NCBI GenBank assembly: GCA_002068935.1
Contig: MWBF01000004.1
Span: forward strand, 1-37,002
DNA length: 37,002 nucleotides
DNA from: Chloroflexi bacterium ADurb.Bin325
GTDB lineage: Bacteria; Chloroflexota; Anaerolineae; CG2-30-64-16
Reading direction: 5' to 3'
Shown here: positions 5,951-29,563 of the stretch, one piece after another
Layout of the letters: every line of letters begins with the position of its first letter
How positions within the stretch are numbered: the first letter of the stretch is position 1
Program-made: the position numbers and the translations under genes
The notes under the pieces: generated by a model
The model's input: only the letters and a program-made list of their open reading frames with translations
Databases searched by the model: none
Told to the model about the DNA's origin: nothing

Positions 5951-7783
5951 CTAAAACGTGGTGCGACGCTCCTCCACGAACTGCCGCTCGTAGAGCTCGC
6001 GGTATACGCCGCCGGCGGCCAGCAGCGCGTCGTGCGGCCCACGCTCCACGATCCGCCCGCCCTGCACCACACAGATCAGGTCAGCGTCGCGCACGGTGCT
6101 GAGCCGGTGCGCGATGATGACCGCGGTGCGCCCCTCCAACAGCCGCTTGAGCGCATCCTGGATGAGCGCCTCGGTGATCGTGTCCACGCTGGCAGTCGCC
6201 TCGTCGAGGATGAGGATGCGCGGGTCGGCCAGCACCGCGCGCGCGATGCAGATGAGCTGGCGCTGGCCCACGGAGAGGTTCGCGCCGCCCTCCTGGATCT
6301 GCGTCGCATAGCCCTCCGGCAGCACGCTGATGAACTCGTGCGCGTTCGCCAGTTGCGCGGCGGCCGTGACCTCCGCCTCGGTCGCGTCCAGGCGGCCGAA
6401 GCGGATATTGTCGTCGATCGTCCCCGAAAACAGGAAGGGGTCCTGCGGCACCAGCCCCATCTGGCGGCGCAGCGAGCGCTGCTGCACCGCGCGCACGTCC
6501 AGCCCGTCGATCAGCACCGCGCCGGCCTGAACATCGTAGAAGCGCGCGATGAGGCTGGCGATCGACGTCTTGCCGCCGCCGGTCGGCCCCACGAGCGCGA
6601 CCGTCTGGCCCGGCGCGATCGTCAGATCGATGTCGCGCAGCACGGTCTGATCCTCCAGATAGGCGAACGACACACCGCGCAGCTCGATGCGCCCCTCGAT
6701 CGGCGGCATCTCGATGGCGTCCGGCCGGTCGGCCACCGCCGGCTCGGTATCCAGCAACTCCAGCACGCGCTCGCCGCCGGCCATCGCGGACTGGACCGTC
6801 GTGTAAAGCTGGCTGAGCTCCTGGATGGGCTGGAAGAAGCGCGAGACGTAGGCCAGGAACGCGACTACCACGCCGAGAGTCAGCTCGTCCGCGGCGACGG
6901 CCTTGCCGCCGAACCACAGCACGATCGCGGTCGCCAGCATCCCCAGAAACTCCACGGTCGGCAGGAATATGAAGGAGAGCGACATGGCCTCGACGTGCGC
7001 ATCGCGGTTGGCGCGGTTGACCTCCTCGAAGCGCTCGTAGGAGGCGCCCTCCTGGGCAAACGCCTGGATGACGCGCATCGCCATGATGTTCTCGGCCAGA
7101 TCGCCGACCACGGCGGCCACGCGCGCCCGCGTGTTGCGGAACGCGACCTGCGCGCGCCGCGTGAACAGCAGCGTGGCCAGCAGCATCAACGGCAGGGCGG
7201 TGAAGGTCAGCAGCGCCAGCCGCGGGCTCATCGACAGCATGACGCCGATGATGCCGACGAGCACCACGGTATCTCCGATCAGCGTGACGAGGCCCTGCGA
7301 CAGGAGGTCGTTGATGACGCCGACATCGCTGATGACGCGCGAGATGGTGACGCCGACGATGTGCGTGTCGTGATAGCCGAGGTGCAGCTCTTGCAGATGG
7401 CGGAACAGATCCCCGCGCAGGCCGGACAACACGCGCTGGCCCACCCACGAGAGCAGATACTGCTGGGCCGAGGAGGTCGCATACTGCGCCAGGAAGACGC
7501 CCGCCAGCAGCGCGACCGTCCGGATCAGGCCGGGCAGGTCGCCCTTGGTGATGTCCTGGTCGATGGCGACCTTGACGAGGTAGGGCGCGGCGAGCGCCAG
7601 GCCGGAGGCGACCAGCATGAGCGCCAGCGCCAGCGTCATGCGCCGCGCGTGCGGTCGCAGATAGGCGAGCAGCCGGACGAGGATGCGGCGGTCGAACCCG
7701 CGCCGTTCCAGCGGCTGGCCGAACCGCTCCAGCGCGCCCCCTGGCCCCATGCCGGGGCTGGACGAACCGATCGAGAAAGTCAT
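5951..7783 (-). CDS. ABC exporter half-transporter, catalytically canonical subunit
   Basis: This is a type-IV (ABCB-like) exporter subunit of 610 residues: a six-helix membrane domain (about residues 40-340) fused to an ATPase domain (about 365-600). Visible motifs are Walker A 'GPTGGGKTS', Q-loop 'LVPQDPFLF', a signature that reads LSVGQ rather than LSGGQ, Walker B with catalytic Glu528 ('LILDEATAS'), and the switch His559 ('IIAHRLST'). It is the complement of the exporter encoded at 8773-10572, which lacks the Glu and His but has an intact signature. Together they should form one asymmetric heterodimer. The cargo is unknown; lipids or drugs are typical. Start: ATG at 7783 with a weak AAGG upstream. 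Between it and its partner lies a toxin-antitoxin pair. Confidence 0.93.
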   Translation of the reverse strand: MTFSIGSSSPGMGPGGALERFGQPLERRGFDRRILVRLLAYLRPHARRMTLALALMLVASGLALAAPYLVKVAIDQDITKGDLPGLIRTVALLAGVFLAQYATSSAQQYLLSWVGQRVLSGLRGDLFRHLQELHLGYHDTHIVGVTISRVISDVGVINDLLSQGLVTLIGDTVVLVGIIGVMLSMSPRLALLTFTALPLMLLATLLFTRRAQVAFRNTRARVAAVVGDLAENIMAMRVIQAFAQEGASYERFEEVNRANRDAHVEAMSLSFIFLPTVEFLGMLATAIVLWFGGKAVAADELTLGVVVAFLAYVSRFFQPIQELSQLYTTVQSAMAGGERVLELLDTEPAVADRPDAIEMPPIEGRIELRGVSFAYLEDQTVLRDIDLTIAPGQTVALVGPTGGGKTSIASLIARFYDVQAGAVLIDGLDVRAVQQRSLRRQMGLVPQDPFLFSGTIDDNIRFGRLDATEAEVTAAAQLANAHEFISVLPEGYATQIQEGGANLSVGQRQLICIARAVLADPRILILDEATASVDTITEALIQDALKRLLEGRTAVIIAHRLSTVRDADLICVVQGGRIVERGPHDALLAAGGVYRELYERQFVEERRTTF

Positions 7784-8772: not shown

Positions 8773-10572
8773 TTACCCCATTTCCCCCGCCCGGAGCGGG
8801 TTTTCGGCGGCTGCTTCGGGCCGCAGTTGCCGGTGATAAACCTCCGTATACAGCCCGGACGTGCGGAGCAGCTCCTCATGCGTGCCGCGCGCAGCGATGC
8901 GGCCCCGTTCGAGCACGAGGATGAGATCTGCGCGGCGCAGCGTGCTGAGCCGCTGTGCGATGACGAAGGAGGTCCGGCCCTCCATAAGTCGCGCCAGCGC
9001 CTGCTGGATGAGATGTTCGGTCTCGGTGTCCACGCTGGCCGTGGCGTCGTCCAGGATCAGGATGCGCGGGTCCTTGAGCAGGGCGCGGGCGATGGCGATG
9101 CGCTGCTTCTGCCCGCCGGAGAGCGTGATGCCGCGCTCGCCCACGTAGGTGTCGTAGCCGTCGGCGGAGGCCATGATGAAGTCGTGCGCCTGGGCCGCGC
9201 GCGCCGCGGCGACGACCTCGGCGTCGGTCGCATCCGGGCGGCCGAACGCGATGTTCTCCCGGATGGGCGCGGCGAACAGCAGCGTCTCCTGCAACACGAT
9301 GCCGATCTGGTCGCGCAGCGAGTTGAGCGTGACCCCGCGGATGTCCCGACCGTCGATCGTGATGCATCCCTCGGTCGGGTCGTAGAAGCGGGGGATGAGG
9401 TTGATGATCGTGGACTTGCCGGAGCCGGTCGCGCCGAGCAGCGCGATGATCTGGCCGGGCCGCGCCTCGAAGCTCACGTCCGACAGCACCTTGTGACGGC
9501 GGAAGTAGGCGAAGGAGACGTGTTCGAAGCGGATATATCCCTGCACCGCGGGCAGCGGCGCGGCGTCCGCGGCCTCGCGGATCTCCGATTCCGTGTCGAG
9601 GATCTCGAAGATGCGTTCGCCGGCGGCCGCAGCCATCGCCAGCGCGGGGATGATATTCCCCACCCGGCGGATCGGCTGGATAAGCTGGCCCATGTAGGTC
9701 GAGAAGGCCACCAGCTCGCCCAGCGTCAGCCGCTGCCGGATGACCAGCCAGCCGCCGAACCCCATGATGACCACCGTGCCGAAGTTGGCGATCAGGTTCA
9801 GCAGCGGCTCGTTGATGGCCTGGAGCCGCGCCTGCCGCGCCGACAGGTCGAACCACTTCTCGTTCTCGCGATCGAAGCGGGCGATCTCCGCTTGCTCCTG
9901 CGCAAAGGCGCGCACGGCCCGGGCCCCGCGCAGGTTCTGCTCCAGCCGGGTCGTCAACGTGGCAAGTTGCTGCTGGATGGTGAGCGAGAGCGGCCGCATC
10001 TGCCTGCCGTAGATAAAGGCGCGATAGCCGAGTAGCGGCACGGTCAGCAGCGCCAGGCCGGCCAGCCCCGGGTTCATCCAGGCCAGCATGACCGCGGTGC
10101 CCAGCGCCAGCACGCCCCCCTCTGCCAGCCGGAGGAGCGCGCGGCCCGTCAGAAAGCGGATGCGTTCGACATCCTGGATGGCCCGCGAGAGCAACTGGCC
10201 GGTCTCGGAGCGGTCATGGAAGGAGAAGGAGAGGGCTGCAAGCCTGGCGTGAAGCGCGTTGCGCAGATCGTAGGCTACGCTCTGCGATGCGGTTTCGGTC
10301 CAGCGGCCCTGAAAGTAGACCAACACCCCGCGCAGCAGCGTCAGGCCAAGCAGCCCGGCCACGGCGCGCGCCAGCAGGCCGGTGTCGTGGCCGCCGATGC
10401 CGCGGTCGATGATCCAGCGGATGAACTGCGGGATGGCAATCGCCAGCCCGGCGATGACGAGCAGCATCAGATAGGAGCCGATCGTCAGACGCCAGTAGGG
10501 GCGGAGATAACCCAACGTCCGCCAGATGATGGCCGCGCTGCCCGCGGACGCCGGTTTGAAAGAGCCCTTCAC
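8773..10572 (-). CDS. ABC exporter half-transporter, degenerate-site subunit
   Basis: This is an ABCB-like subunit of 599 residues, with six membrane helices (about residues 20-330) followed by an ATPase domain. Walker A 'GATGSGKST', Q-loop 'IVLQETLLF' and signature LSGGQ are intact. The catalytic Glu after Walker B is replaced by Asp509 ('LILDDATAS') and the switch His by Gln540 ('VIAQRLST'). This pattern is known from the degenerate site of heterodimeric exporters such as TM287/288 and BmrCD. Its partner at 5951-7783 supplies the catalytic residues. Start: GTG at 10572. A TATAAT on the minus strand at 10616-10611 could be the -10 element, but no good -35 is seen. The PlsC-like gene ends 59 bases upstream on the same strand. 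Confidence 0.93.
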   Translation of the reverse strand: MKGSFKPASAGSAAIIWRTLGYLRPYWRLTIGSYLMLLVIAGLAIAIPQFIRWIIDRGIGGHDTGLLARAVAGLLGLTLLRGVLVYFQGRWTETASQSVAYDLRNALHARLAALSFSFHDRSETGQLLSRAIQDVERIRFLTGRALLRLAEGGVLALGTAVMLAWMNPGLAGLALLTVPLLGYRAFIYGRQMRPLSLTIQQQLATLTTRLEQNLRGARAVRAFAQEQAEIARFDRENEKWFDLSARQARLQAINEPLLNLIANFGTVVIMGFGGWLVIRQRLTLGELVAFSTYMGQLIQPIRRVGNIIPALAMAAAAGERIFEILDTESEIREAADAAPLPAVQGYIRFEHVSFAYFRRHKVLSDVSFEARPGQIIALLGATGSGKSTIINLIPRFYDPTEGCITIDGRDIRGVTLNSLRDQIGIVLQETLLFAAPIRENIAFGRPDATDAEVVAAARAAQAHDFIMASADGYDTYVGERGITLSGGQKQRIAIARALLKDPRILILDDATASVDTETEHLIQQALARLMEGRTSFVIAQRLSTLRRADLILVLERGRIAARGTHEELLRTSGLYTEVYHRQLRPEAAAENPLRAGEMG

Positions 10573-10631: not shown

Positions 10632-11567
10632 TCACGAAAGCAGGGTCGGAGGCTGCAAGAACAGGGCCAGTGTCTCCTCGGCGCGGGCGCGGATGCGCGC
10701 CATGCACTCCGGGCCGCCGAGGGCCAGCTCGCTGGCCGGCGTCGGCGCGCCGAAGACGACGCGCGGCGCCAGCTTCAGGCGGTCGGAGAATACAAGCTGA
10801 TAGATGACCTGCAAGAACTCCGCCAGCTTGCGGCGGTCGTGCGCGCGGCGCCGGTAGCGGACGAGCGGATGCCGCGCCCAGCGGGGCGCGACCACCCCGC
10901 CCGCGATGGCGGGGATCAGGACGGCCTGCGGAACCTTGCGCAGGATGAGCTCCAGGCTGGACGACCAGTCGGCCAGCGCGGCGCGTGCTTCCTCCGCCGC
11001 GCTGCGGTAGGCCAGGGGGTCGGGATCCAGGAAGCCGCTGGCGAAGGTCAGGAGGCAGCCGCCCGCCTCGAGGTGGCGGATGGCCGCGCGAACGGCCGCG
11101 AGACGCTTGTATGGATCGCGATCCGTCTGGATCAGGTGTTGCGCGACATGAGGCAGGCAGCGAAAGGCCGCGACCTCGCTGGTCAGCGCCCTGATGTCGG
11201 GCCGCGGCAGGCTCGCGACCAGCGCAAAGCTGTCATACGCGCCAGGGTGGTTGGCCGCGACGAGGAGCGGGCCGGCCGGCGGGATGTTGACCTGGCCGAA
11301 AGCGTCCACCCGCTCGACGAAGTGCGACAACAGCCACTGGCTGCCGGCCGCGGGCCCGTCCTCGCCCACGCGGCGGTCGAACTGCACGGCCAGCGTCGCC
11401 AGGCGGCGCACGGGCCGCGCGACGACGCGGCCGAGCCGCCGCCGGAGCGCGCCGTCGCGCCGCGCGCCGAGCGCGACGAAGATCTCGTCGGTCACGGCCT
11501 GTACCAGCGCCTCGACGGCCTGTACCTCTTGTGTCGTGGCCTCGTTGGCCCCTATCGCGGCTTCCAT
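10632..11567 (-). CDS. PlsC-like 1-acyl-glycerol-phosphate acyltransferase family protein
   Basis: The protein of about 311 residues belongs to the lysophospholipid acyltransferase superfamily. The block 'PLLVAANHPGAYDSF' has the catalytic pattern in the form NHPGAYD, where H-x4-D is expected. A second block, 'KRLAAVRAAIRHLEAGGCLLTFASGFLDPD', corresponds to the substrate-binding region, although the usual 'FPEGTRS' is degenerate. It would act at the membrane on lipid precursors. The N-terminus has three in-frame options: TTG 11600, ATG 11588 and ATG 11567. The last is chosen because a promoter (TTGAAA, 18 bases, TATGAT at 11613-11584) would leave a short leader with GGGG just before it. The exact acyl acceptor is unknown. 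Confidence 0.72.
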   Translation of the reverse strand: MEAAIGANEATTQEVQAVEALVQAVTDEIFVALGARRDGALRRRLGRVVARPVRRLATLAVQFDRRVGEDGPAAGSQWLLSHFVERVDAFGQVNIPPAGPLLVAANHPGAYDSFALVASLPRPDIRALTSEVAAFRCLPHVAQHLIQTDRDPYKRLAAVRAAIRHLEAGGCLLTFASGFLDPDPLAYRSAAEEARAALADWSSSLELILRKVPQAVLIPAIAGGVVAPRWARHPLVRYRRRAHDRRKLAEFLQVIYQLVFSDRLKLAPRVVFGAPTPASELALGGPECMARIRARAEETLALFLQPPTLLS

Positions 11568-11583
11568 GTTGCCCCGCGATGAT

Positions 11584-11613
11584 ATCATATCCGGCCCCAA
11601 TTTGATATTTCAA
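11584..11613 (-). promoter_or_regulatory. Candidate promoter of the acyltransferase gene
   Basis: On the minus strand TTGAAA (11613-11608) and TATGAT (11589-11584) are 18 bases apart. The element overlaps the divergent typA promoter at 11602-11629, so the two cannot be occupied by polymerase at the same time. Confidence 0.45.
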
Positions 11614-11629
11614 CCGTTATGTGTAAAAT
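11602..11629 (+). promoter_or_regulatory. Promoter of typA
   Basis: TTGATA at 11602-11607 and TAAAAT at 11624-11629 are 16 bases apart. Transcription would begin near 11636, placing the hairpin at 11652-11676 inside the typA leader. Confidence 0.6.
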
Positions 11630-11651
11630 ATGGGCGAGCTGGCAGTGACAG

Positions 11652-11676
11652 CCGCGGCAGAAGCCGCGGTTTTTTT
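11652..11676 (+). terminator. Intrinsic terminator in the typA leader (candidate attenuator)
   Basis: A 7-pair all-GC stem (11652-11658 with 11663-11669), a 4-base AGAA loop and seven consecutive T's form a textbook terminator. It acts on the plus strand only. The nearest upstream plus-strand gene ends at 5694, so there is no ordinary transcript for it to end. It lies between the typA promoter and the ATG at 11712, which suggests transcription attenuation or a very short leader RNA. Confidence 0.8.
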
Positions 11677-11711
11677 GTCCGCTCGACAGTCAGTTCGGAC
11701 AGGCAACCGGC

Positions 11712-13598
11712 ATGAACAGACGCACAGACCTCAGAAATATCGCCATTATCGCGCACGTCGACCACGGCAAGACTACCCTGGTCGATGCGATGCTGCGCCA
11801 GTCGAAGGTGTTCCGCGACAACCAGCAGGTGCCGGAGCGGGTGCTCGATTCGGGCGACCTGGAGCGCGAGCGCGGCATCACGATCCTGGCCAAGAACACC
11901 GCGGTGCGCTACGGCGGGGTCAAGATCAATATCGTGGACACGCCCGGCCATGCAGACTTCGGCGGCGAGGTGGAGCGCGTCCTGAACATGGTAGACGGCG
12001 TGCTGCTCCTGGTGGATGCGGTCGAAGGCCCCATGCCGCAGACCCGTTTCGTCCTGCGCAAGGCGCTGGAGCTGGGGCATAAGGCCATCGTGGTCGTCAA
12101 CAAGGTGGACCGGCCCAACGCGCGGCCCGGCTGGGTGGTCGACGCCACGTTCGATCTCTTTGTTGGGCTGGGCGCGACCGACGAACAGGCCGACTTTCCG
12201 ATCGTCTATGCGGTCGCGACCGCGGGCCGCGCGGGGCTCGCGCCCGATGCGCTGGAGAACCACCTCCGGCCGCTCTTCGAGGCGATCCTGGAGACGCTGC
12301 CCGGCCCGCGCGCCGATGCCGGCCGGCCGAGCCAGATGCTCGTCACCAATCTCAGCTATGACGACTACAAGGGCAAGATCGTCCTGGGCCGGCTCTCCGC
12401 GGGCACGCTGCGCCGCGGGCAGCCGCTCGTGCGCTTCGACCGCGACGGCGGGCTGCATCAGGAGAAGGTCAACCAGGTCTTCGTCCATGAAGGGCTGAGC
12501 CGGGTCGAGGTCGATGAGGTCGCCGCGGGCGAGATCGTCGCGCTGACGGGCATCCCCGACGTCAACATCGGCGACACGCTGGCCGATCCGAGCGACCCGC
12601 GGCCGCTGCCGCCCATCGTTGTCGAGCCGCCCACCGTGCGCATGACGTTCGGGGTCAACACCTCGCCCTTCGCCGGCCGCGAGGCGCAATGGTCCACCAG
12701 CCGCAAGCTCAAGGAGCGGCTGGATCGCGAGCTGGAGCGCAATGTCGCGCTGCGCGTGGAGCCGACCAGCTCGGCGGACACCTATCTGGTGAGCGGGCGG
12801 GGCGAGCTACATCTGACCATCCTCATCGAGACGATGCGCCGCGAGGGCTACGAGTTCCAGGTCAGCGCGCCGGAGGTCATCCTACGGGAGGACCCCGACA
12901 CCGGCGAGACCCTGGAGCCGATGGAGGAGGTCTACATCGAGGCGCCCTCGGACTACACGGGCGTGGTCGCGGAGATGCTCGGCCAGCGCAAGGCGCAGAT
13001 GCTGGACATGCACCAGGCGGCCAACGGCACGGTCTACTACACCTATCTCGCGCCGACGCGGGGCATGTTGGGCTTCCGACAGGCGTTCCTGACCGCGACG
13101 CGCGGGACCGGCATCGTCCACACGCTCTTCCACGGCTACGAGCCGCACGTGGGGCCGATCCGCCAGCGCAACTGCGGCTCGCTGGTGGCCTGGGAGGACG
13201 GCGTCGCCACGGCCTATGCGATGTTCAACGCGCAGGAGCGCGGCAAGCTGTTCATCACGCCGGGGGCCGAGATCTACGAGGGCATGATCGTGGGCCGCGC
13301 CGCGCGCGACGAGGATCTGACGCTCAGCGTGACCAAGAAGAAGCATCTGACCAACCACCGCTCGTCGACCGGCGACGAATTGGTCCACCTGGATGCGCCG
13401 ATCGTCATGTCGCTCGATGACGCGATCGAATACATCAGCCAGGACGAGCTGGTCGAGGTCACGCCCAAGAGCATCCGCCTGCGCAAGCGCATCCTCGACA
13501 CCGAGGATCGGAAGAAGGCGCTGAAGGATCGCAATATCGCGCTGGCCGCGGCCAACGGGACCAACGGCGTCAACGGGACGAACGGCAGGGGCGGCTGA
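11712..13598 (+). CDS. typA: Ribosome-associated GTPase TypA/BipA
   Basis: TypA is a translational GTPase of the EF-G family that binds the ribosome and aids growth and 50S maturation under stress. The 628-residue protein has G1 'HVDHGKTT' (residues 15-22), switch region '[12 protein letters not shown]', G3 '[14 protein letters not shown]', G4 'NKVDRP', the domain II beta-barrel and the C-terminal TypA-specific part ('[19 protein letters not shown]', '[11 protein letters not shown]'). The C-terminus ends in an Asn/Gly/Thr-rich tail '[11 protein letters not shown]' beyond the usual family end. The start at ATG 11712 gives the standard '[14 protein letters not shown]' opening; the ribosome-binding site is weak. 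Expression is probably controlled in the leader by the terminator hairpin. Confidence 0.97.
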
Positions 13599-13659
13599 CG
13601 GCTAAAGGCCCATTCGTAGACGTTGAGGCAAGCCAGAGGCTTGCTTCACCCCCATCCTC

Positions 13660-13709
13660 CTCTCCGATCTTGAGCGAGCCTTCGGCTCGCACGTCAGGAG
13701 AGGGGGAGT
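13660..13709. repeat. Hairpin repeat in convergent gap, copy 2
   Basis: The right arm 13684-13709 is identical to 5883-5908. The outer stem pairs 13660-13665 with 13697-13702, and the inner stem pairs 13674-13680 with 13684-13690 around a TTC loop. The central GCCTTCGGC is the reverse complement of the GCCGAAGGC in copy 1. It lies between the convergent typA and URO-D genes, and may block read-through in both directions. Confidence 0.68.
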
Positions 13710-13719
13710 ATTGAGTGCG

Positions 13720-14895
13720 TCAATAATACATGCACTCTCGGTACACATCCAGCACGTACCGATACGTATCGTAGTGCACAGTCGGCGGGATCGAGTGGTC
13801 GGAGGCAAAGACCAGCCGCGCGCCCCGCTCCTTCATCCCGTTGATATAGTCGCGTACCTCGCGGCCGATCAGGTCGCGGTCGTTCGTCTCCCAGATGCGG
13901 ATGTCGAAGCCGCCGACAAAGGCCAGTCTGTCCCCGTACTTCTCCGCAAACGTGAACGGCTCGTTATCGCGCGCCTTGCGCTCCATCGGGTTCAGCCCGT
14001 CGAAGCCGGCCTCCACGATGAGCGGGAGCGCCTTGGCCGTGCTGCCGCAGGAGTGCAGGACCACGGGCAGGTCGTAGCCGTGGAAGAAGTCCACCATCTC
14101 CCGAAAATAGGGGAAGATAAGCTCGCCCAACAGCTTCGGCGACGCAAACAGGCCGTTCTTGTAGCCCAGGTCCTCGTACATCCAGACGCCGTCGGGCAGG
14201 CCGACCTGCTCGAAGAGATAACGATAGTACTGCTGGTGGAAGTCCGTGTAGACCCGGTTGAAATCGTGAATCCACCCGGGATCGGTGATGAGGCTCGAAT
14301 ACATGGTCACATCGCCCATGCTCTGCCGCATGCCTTCCCAGATGAACAGGTGGCCGTAGTGCGCCCAGGCGCCGGCGTCACGGGCCTCGGCCAGGCCGCG
14401 CCGCGTCTTGTCCAGGTCGCTGAAGCGCTCGACATCGAAGGTGAGCAGGTGGGGCCGGTAGTCGCGCTCCCAGACCTCGCGCGATGTCATCAGGAAGTCG
14501 ATGTGCTCCGGCGTGCCCATGCGATGCTTCCAGTACTTGAGCGCCGCGCCTGACCCGTTGCGCTTGACCTTCCACTCGTCGGTCTCTTCGAGGATCTCCT
14601 CGTAGTCGCGCAGCGGGTGCACGTCGAACCAGCCGCCGACGCCGACCATGTCGTAGCCGAAGTGCTGCCACGGCGGGATCGGCTCGACATACTCGCCGGG
14701 GACGATGACATCGTCCCACTGGCCGTCCTCCGGCCGCCAGTACGAGTCGCCGACCTCCTTGTATACGGTGCGCGTGGGATAGCCCTGTTTGACCCACAGG
14801 AAGACCGCATCGGTCCACGGCCCGTCCATGAGCGCCACGCGCTCCGCGTGCCTGCCGCGCAGCAGATTGTCGACGACCTTGCGCCCTGACTCCAT
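13720..14895 (-). CDS. Uroporphyrinogen decarboxylase (URO-D) superfamily protein
   Basis: The 391-residue protein has the URO-D/methyltransferase-type TIM-barrel pattern: 'PVVLHSCGSTAKALPLIVEAGFDGLNPMERKA' matches the conserved metal-binding Cys-Gly-Ser region of the MtaA-like branch. 'RLAFVGGFDIRIWETND' and 'ARLVFASDHSIPPTVHYDTYRYVLD' match the C-terminal blocks. It is probably not a haem enzyme: no other haem genes are nearby and the sequence is closer in style to corrinoid-related or sugar-linked URO-D proteins. Start: ATG 14895 with GGAGG 7 bases upstream; an in-frame extension to 15021 overlaps the nagA promoter and is rejected. It is divergent from nagA. Confidence 0.82.
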   Translation of the reverse strand: MESGRKVVDNLLRGRHAERVALMDGPWTDAVFLWVKQGYPTRTVYKEVGDSYWRPEDGQWDDVIVPGEYVEPIPPWQHFGYDMVGVGGWFDVHPLRDYEEILEETDEWKVKRNGSGAALKYWKHRMGTPEHIDFLMTSREVWERDYRPHLLTFDVERFSDLDKTRRGLAEARDAGAWAHYGHLFIWEGMRQSMGDVTMYSSLITDPGWIHDFNRVYTDFHQQYYRYLFEQVGLPDGVWMYEDLGYKNGLFASPKLLGELIFPYFREMVDFFHGYDLPVVLHSCGSTAKALPLIVEAGFDGLNPMERKARDNEPFTFAEKYGDRLAFVGGFDIRIWETNDRDLIGREVRDYINGMKERGARLVFASDHSIPPTVHYDTYRYVLDVYRECMYY

Positions 14896-29152: not shown

Positions 29153-29155
29153 GCA

Positions 29156-29563
29156 GGTGGAGATGCCGGGAGTCGAACCCGGGTCCGAAACAAACAGTCG
29201 CAAGCGTCTACAAGCTTAGTCTCTGATTTGAATTTCGCCGGACGGTCCAGCAGAGACCACCGTCCGCTAGCCCGGCTAGCCGAGGGTCTTGAGCTCGCCT
29301 ATCGGCGTCCGCGAGCCGCACCTTACGGTCTATGACGATGCACCTCGACGCCGCCTGGCCCCATCGAGGGCACCGGATCACCTTACGGCGATCTTTTGTT
29401 CACGTTCCTTACGCGGCCAACGCGAAAGCGTTGTTGCGAGCGGTCGGGAAAGCGAACGCATTGCCAGTGTTGGCATTTGTGTTTTTGCTCTGGATTTGCG
29501 AGGTGAGAGCGCCTCGGTCTTGCAGCTTACGCCTTATCTGCCCCGTCGAGACCAGTCATCCCC
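29156..29563 (-). ncRNA. ssrA: Transfer-messenger RNA (tmRNA)
   Basis: tmRNA rescues stalled ribosomes and tags the nascent chain for degradation. The 5' end (GGGGATG, 29563-29557) pairs with CATCTCC (29165-29159) to make the 7-pair acceptor stem. The next bases, GGTCTCGACGGGG, match the conserved 5' D-arm, and the T-arm has GGTTCGACTCC. The CCA end is not fully encoded (CCT). The likely resume codon is GCC at 29474-29472, nucleotide 90 of the RNA. It opens a 21-codon tag beginning ANTGN and ending NAFALAA, with TAA at 29411-29409. The length, about 405 bases, is typical. smpB lies just upstream on the same strand. Confidence 0.96.

Follow-up and report, generated by a model that had tools for sequence, protein, structure and literature searches.

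A putative transcription attenuator between the promoter and the coding sequence of typA in Chloroflexota

Premature intrinsic terminators are known upstream of translation genes, rimP and rpsL among them (Naville and Gautheret 2010, PMC2965389), and in the rimP-leader the terminator lies 4-130 nt from the gene; the main text of that study mentions neither typA nor bipA nor Chloroflexi. Proteins that act in trans can bear on intrinsic terminators: CspB and CspD of B. subtilis are reported to have favoured termination at some sites (PMC8307031). BipA, the product of typA, is important for maturing the 50S subunit at low temperature (PMC8313970). A literature search returned little on the control of TypA/BipA and no description of a typA leader, which is weak evidence of novelty because the search covered few subscription journals. 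The terminator gate reported here upstream of typA is probably undescribed, its type being already known at rimP and rpsL.

The DNA that we analysed, hereafter the window, is a stretch of 37,002 nucleotides from Chloroflexi bacterium ADurb.Bin325 (assembly GCA_002068935.1, contig MWBF01000004.1, positions 1 to 37,002, forward strand), lying on contig 4 of a 582-contig assembly that is 94% complete. Among named records, the closest relatives of its TypA come from Anaerolineae and other Chloroflexota metagenome genomes. Elsewhere the window holds a tmRNA gene (29155-29563, minus strand; full-length match to Rfam RF00023, 151 bits) and, near each other, two MsbA-like ABC transporter genes (5951-7783 and 8773-10572, both minus strand). 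The features of the typA locus are these:

10632-11600, minus strand: divergent gene upstream of typA, with weak similarity to acyltransferases (weak matches to OlsF and Acyltransferase; codon-position composition)
11602-11607, plus strand: -35 hexamer TTGATA (consensus scan)
11601-11606, plus strand: alternative -35 reading TTTGAT (aligns with TTTGGC/T of relatives)
11624-11629, plus strand: -10 hexamer TAAAAT (consensus scan)
11634-11638, plus strand: transcription start predicted near 11636 (by spacing from the -10)
11650-11671, plus strand: terminator hairpin AGCCGCGGC-AGAA-GCCGCGGTT (terminator scan and folding; paired changes in seven relatives)
11670-11676, plus strand: T7 run of the intrinsic terminator (sequence; T-run kept in seven hand-aligned relatives)
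11712-13598, plus strand: typA (bipA), translational GTPase, 628 aa (TIGR01394, 895 bits against a cut-off of 757; BipA_C domain)

The plus-strand promoter at 11602-11629 that a preliminary description of this locus had proposed was recovered by the consensus scan as TTGATA, 16 nt and TAAAAT, with 10 of 12 consensus matches, and promoter-like sites of such quality number two against 0.4 expected when 11000-14500 is scanned on both strands. At the position of the window's -10, relatives carry an extended -10, TGTGGTANNAT, and by eye the window's -35 can be matched to GATTTGG of four relatives (L004, L005, L006 and L083). Measured from the start predicted from this -10, the hairpin follows after about 15 bases, in agreement with the gap given earlier; a promoter downstream of 11676 had been named as evidence against the proposed layout, and the same scan gave no promoter-like site between the hairpin and the ATG.

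The gene upstream of typA has an uncertain start codon (TTG at 11600 or ATG at 11567), and its own promoter-like site (11584-11613, minus strand) overlaps the typA promoter. G+C by codon position is 0.77/0.51/0.90 for this minus-strand gene and 0.87/0.51/0.76 for a plus-strand ORF that overlaps it, and the weak acyltransferase match is limited to the minus frame; the minus-strand gene is the better supported of the two. Because the adjoining gene is divergent, the hairpin is not its terminator, and the earlier observation that no upstream gene on the same strand needs a terminator here is borne out.

The stem pairs 11650-11658 with 11663-11671 around a loop at 11659-11662, and the isolated hairpin has a predicted stability of -16.8 kcal/mol. 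It had been delimited as a GC-only hairpin with seven T's at 11652-11676; the GC-rich hairpin and the seven T's are there, but the stem begins at 11650 and, with A-T and G-T as the two outermost pairs, is not strictly GC-only. The 41-nt leader folds more stably than its shuffles (z -2.5), and the terminator score of the 110 nt upstream of typA exceeds that of every one of 60 shuffles (p 0.016). By itself, the number of terminators is ordinary (two in 3.5 kb against 1.6 expected): what stands above chance is the position and the conservation of this terminator, not the count. An intrinsic terminator lies between promoter and gene, and this order is conserved in relatives.

Ten genomes of the window's order, all of one family and including the window's own, formed the family-level set, and seven of them have typA. 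The other three (G004, G006 and G007) gave no typA match at E 1e-150 despite being listed as 98-99% complete, and may have lost the gene. We aligned by hand the leaders of seven relatives (L004, L005, L006, L007, L083, L008 and L075) whose TypA proteins are 73-81% identical, L008 being from a different family of the same class. In all seven, the order is -10, spacer, hairpin, T-run and ATG. The 5' arm of the hairpin is mostly CAGCCGCGGC in close relatives, and the 3' arm varies yet remains paired: when the window is counted with the seven, pairing holds in 71 of 80 stem cells, with changes on both sides at stem pairs 5, 6, 7 and 9, and about 2% of 3'-arm shuffles equal the observed pairing, these counts coming from a hand alignment that is biased towards structure (MAFFT misplaced the hairpin arms). 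The hairpin is thus kept in close relatives, where its loss had been named as a ground for abandoning the attenuator reading, and in the wider phylum, with a conserved promoter ahead of it; of the conserved features that an alignment of typA leaders had been expected to bring out, the hairpin with covarying pairs appeared but the alternative fold did not. Two leaders (L075 and L105) have two tandem terminator-like hairpins upstream of typA, not one.

To see how far the layout extends, we listed typA loci in 300 Chloroflexota genomes that are at least 90% complete and added 80 further leaders. A strong terminator is present in 52 of 122 distinct Chloroflexota typA leaders, over half falling below the threshold for one. 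The arrangement of promoter, terminator and typA recurs in many families with unrelated stem sequences; many Chloroflexia leaders have a hairpin without a U-run, some lineages have neither, and in some clades the hairpin stands 8-17 nt from the ATG (L009, L026, L224). Because much of the phylum has this layout ahead of typA, though in differing sequences, the terminator gate is probably real rather than a chance feature.

Several smaller observations accompany this survey. By eye, a similar hairpin can be made out in four leaders from Thermoactinomycetaceae (L023, L024, L030, L049). L241 and L247 carry a similar insert, GACACTTCGACAGGCTCAGTGCA, between 5' motif and terminator, which points to tolerant spacing. 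Anaerolineales leaders (L097, L251, L254, L313) share a conserved CCGCACGCCGA about 5-10 nt downstream of the -10, near the predicted start. GTGT comes after the U-run at 16 of 66 typA terminators and 3 of 125 other terminators, figures that ignore relatedness.

Within the same Chloroflexota genomes, the terminator signal was found in 30 of 63 typA leaders, 2 of 22 lepA leaders and 2 of 14 gyrB leaders; lepA is the better control, since gyrB leaders often seem to be without a promoter of their own. (One gyrB frame, of about 1126 aa at G000:C30:14266-17607 in L148, is far longer than the 639 positions of the family model and so may contain an in-frame insertion, perhaps an intein; relatives have frames of comparable length.) We also took all matches to two promoter patterns in the loci collected by that stage and asked for a terminator score of at least 15 within 85 nt. 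As first labelled, 21 of 37 typA sites and 7 of 37 other sites had a terminator after the promoter, and six of the seven scoring 'other' sites proved to be typA leaders missed by the parser (L026, L029, L240, L244, L313, L314). After relabelling, the figures are 27 of 43 typA sites against 1 of 31 others (Fisher p 8e-8), a contrast that is somewhat overstated, since the relabelling was post hoc and applied to scoring sites only, so that the 'other' class may still hide terminator-less typA sites; the sequences share descent, and p-values here do not count independent events. Patterns derived from the leaders matched at typA only (5 of 41 genomes in a single family of Anaerolineales, 2 of 10 in the window's order), which, the patterns being drawn from typA leaders, shows that the leader is unrepeated in those genomes and not that attenuators are absent at other genes. 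Median hairpin stability is -15.4 kcal/mol in typA leaders against -18.3 kcal/mol at other terminator-like sites in the loci (p 0.02), the same direction as the lower stability of 5' terminators in an earlier survey (PMC2965389).

How might such a gate be set? The GTCCG/CGGAC stem that had been put forward as a competing fold is present (11677-11681 with 11696-11700) and cannot compete with the hairpin, because it lies entirely downstream of the U-run and does not overlap it; it is also absent from relatives. The least probable account of all is a switch in the RNA itself, in which the 5' segment of the leader pairs with the 5' arm of the terminator and blocks termination. Of 22 Anaerolineales leaders, most have a GCCGA close to the predicted start that is complementary to UCGGC in the 5' arm (mean z -1.24), with GCCGG/CCGGU in one clade, and antiterminator pairing in this subgroup is a weak candidate; against it, the compensatory event is a single one and the five pairs are weak beside the terminator. 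Such pairing was not seen in the window's family (mean z +0.26) or in the remaining leaders outside that family and Anaerolineales (mean z -0.09), and since no mutually exclusive antiterminator was found in the window's family, an RNA-only switch is unsupported. Some single folds made it attractive to pair the RNA 5' end with sequence downstream of the U-run, but as a general feature this was rejected, since 4 of 65 leaders reached p<0.05 (mean z -0.08; the window and L083 were read from the wrong -10 in this test). Inspection of the window's family by eye found no start codon at a common position from the start site to the hairpin, and no shared candidate for the translated small ORF that a ribosome-mediated attenuator has ahead of its terminator. 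No Rfam covariance model reached its gathering score in the leader, a tfoR match of 13.8 bits against 70 being at chance level. The motif AGCCGCGG was considered as a possible mimic of the 530 loop of 16S rRNA; the idea was set aside, as the motif does not occur beyond the family and GC-rich DNA readily yields short matches.

The remaining alternatives keep the hairpin and change its role. If it were an ordinary insulator against upstream transcription, with the true typA promoter further downstream, it would resemble the many other intergenic terminators, including the one upstream of the lepA promoter in this genome; the divergent neighbour, the conserved promoter upstream of the hairpin in relatives and the want of any promoter-like site from the hairpin to the ATG make this very unlikely. 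That the hairpin serves mainly in translation initiation or in stabilizing the mRNA, with an incidental U-run, we consider improbable: the strong hairpins that many Chloroflexia have in this position but with no U-run, and those close to the ATG, would fit, but every hand-aligned relative has kept the U-run, and so have many clades with GC-rich genomes that are not related to one another. A stronger contender, though still an unlikely one, is a fixed partial terminator that holds typA output down at one constant level and senses nothing. In its favour, the pairing test gave no antiterminator fold in the window's family, and inspection of that family's leaders by eye gave neither a leader peptide nor a binding motif in common. 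A weaker promoter would suffice for that end, yet the terminator has been kept over great divergence while its sequence changed, which is an argument of plausibility only; active regulation, as opposed to a fixed partial terminator, is our inference.

We therefore lean, with some confidence, towards a promoter-proximal transcription attenuator in the typA leader. The preliminary description had read the layout in this way, and the conserved promoter followed by a hairpin with compensatory changes supports it there, whereas the alternative fold that it proposed does not hold and no antiterminator pairing was found in the window's family. RNA polymerase would start about 15 bases upstream of the intrinsic terminator, whose elements, like those of the promoter, are seen in the sequence, and some polymerases would stop in the T-run, freeing an RNA of about 40 nt, so that typA mRNA would be made only by those that read through. 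Because neither a leader peptide nor a general self-competing RNA fold was found, read-through set in trans is favoured, and the fraction would probably depend on some influence on the polymerase or on the hairpin as it emerges, for instance that of an RNA chaperone, a Nus factor or temperature. Given that BipA acts in low-temperature 50S maturation (PMC8313970), cold is a reasonable first candidate signal and no more; that the attenuator is phylum-wide and senses cold or the state of ribosome assembly through a trans-acting factor, with TypA made when 50S maturation falters, is a speculative extension that we regard as improbable.

A conserved terminator gate would offer a direct handle on typA control through leader read-through and, if the reading is right, would add Chloroflexota to the bacteria in which premature terminators control translation genes. 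Leader-peptide attenuators (those of amino acid operons, and the bmrC leader, PMC4191407) likewise have a terminator between promoter and structural gene, but the 15-45 nt before the hairpin in typA leaders contain no common small ORF and leave little room for a ribosome. Cold-shock proteins at intrinsic terminators (Bae et al. 2000, as summarized in PMC8307031) offer the parallel of a trans-acting RNA chaperone that alters read-through, a role that at the typA leader is our proposal only. Closest are the rimP- and rpsL-leaders (PMC2965389), which, as characterized there, also place a premature intrinsic terminator between promoter and translation-related gene and, in the case of rpsL, have no sequence or structure common to all species; the difference is that the gene here is typA.
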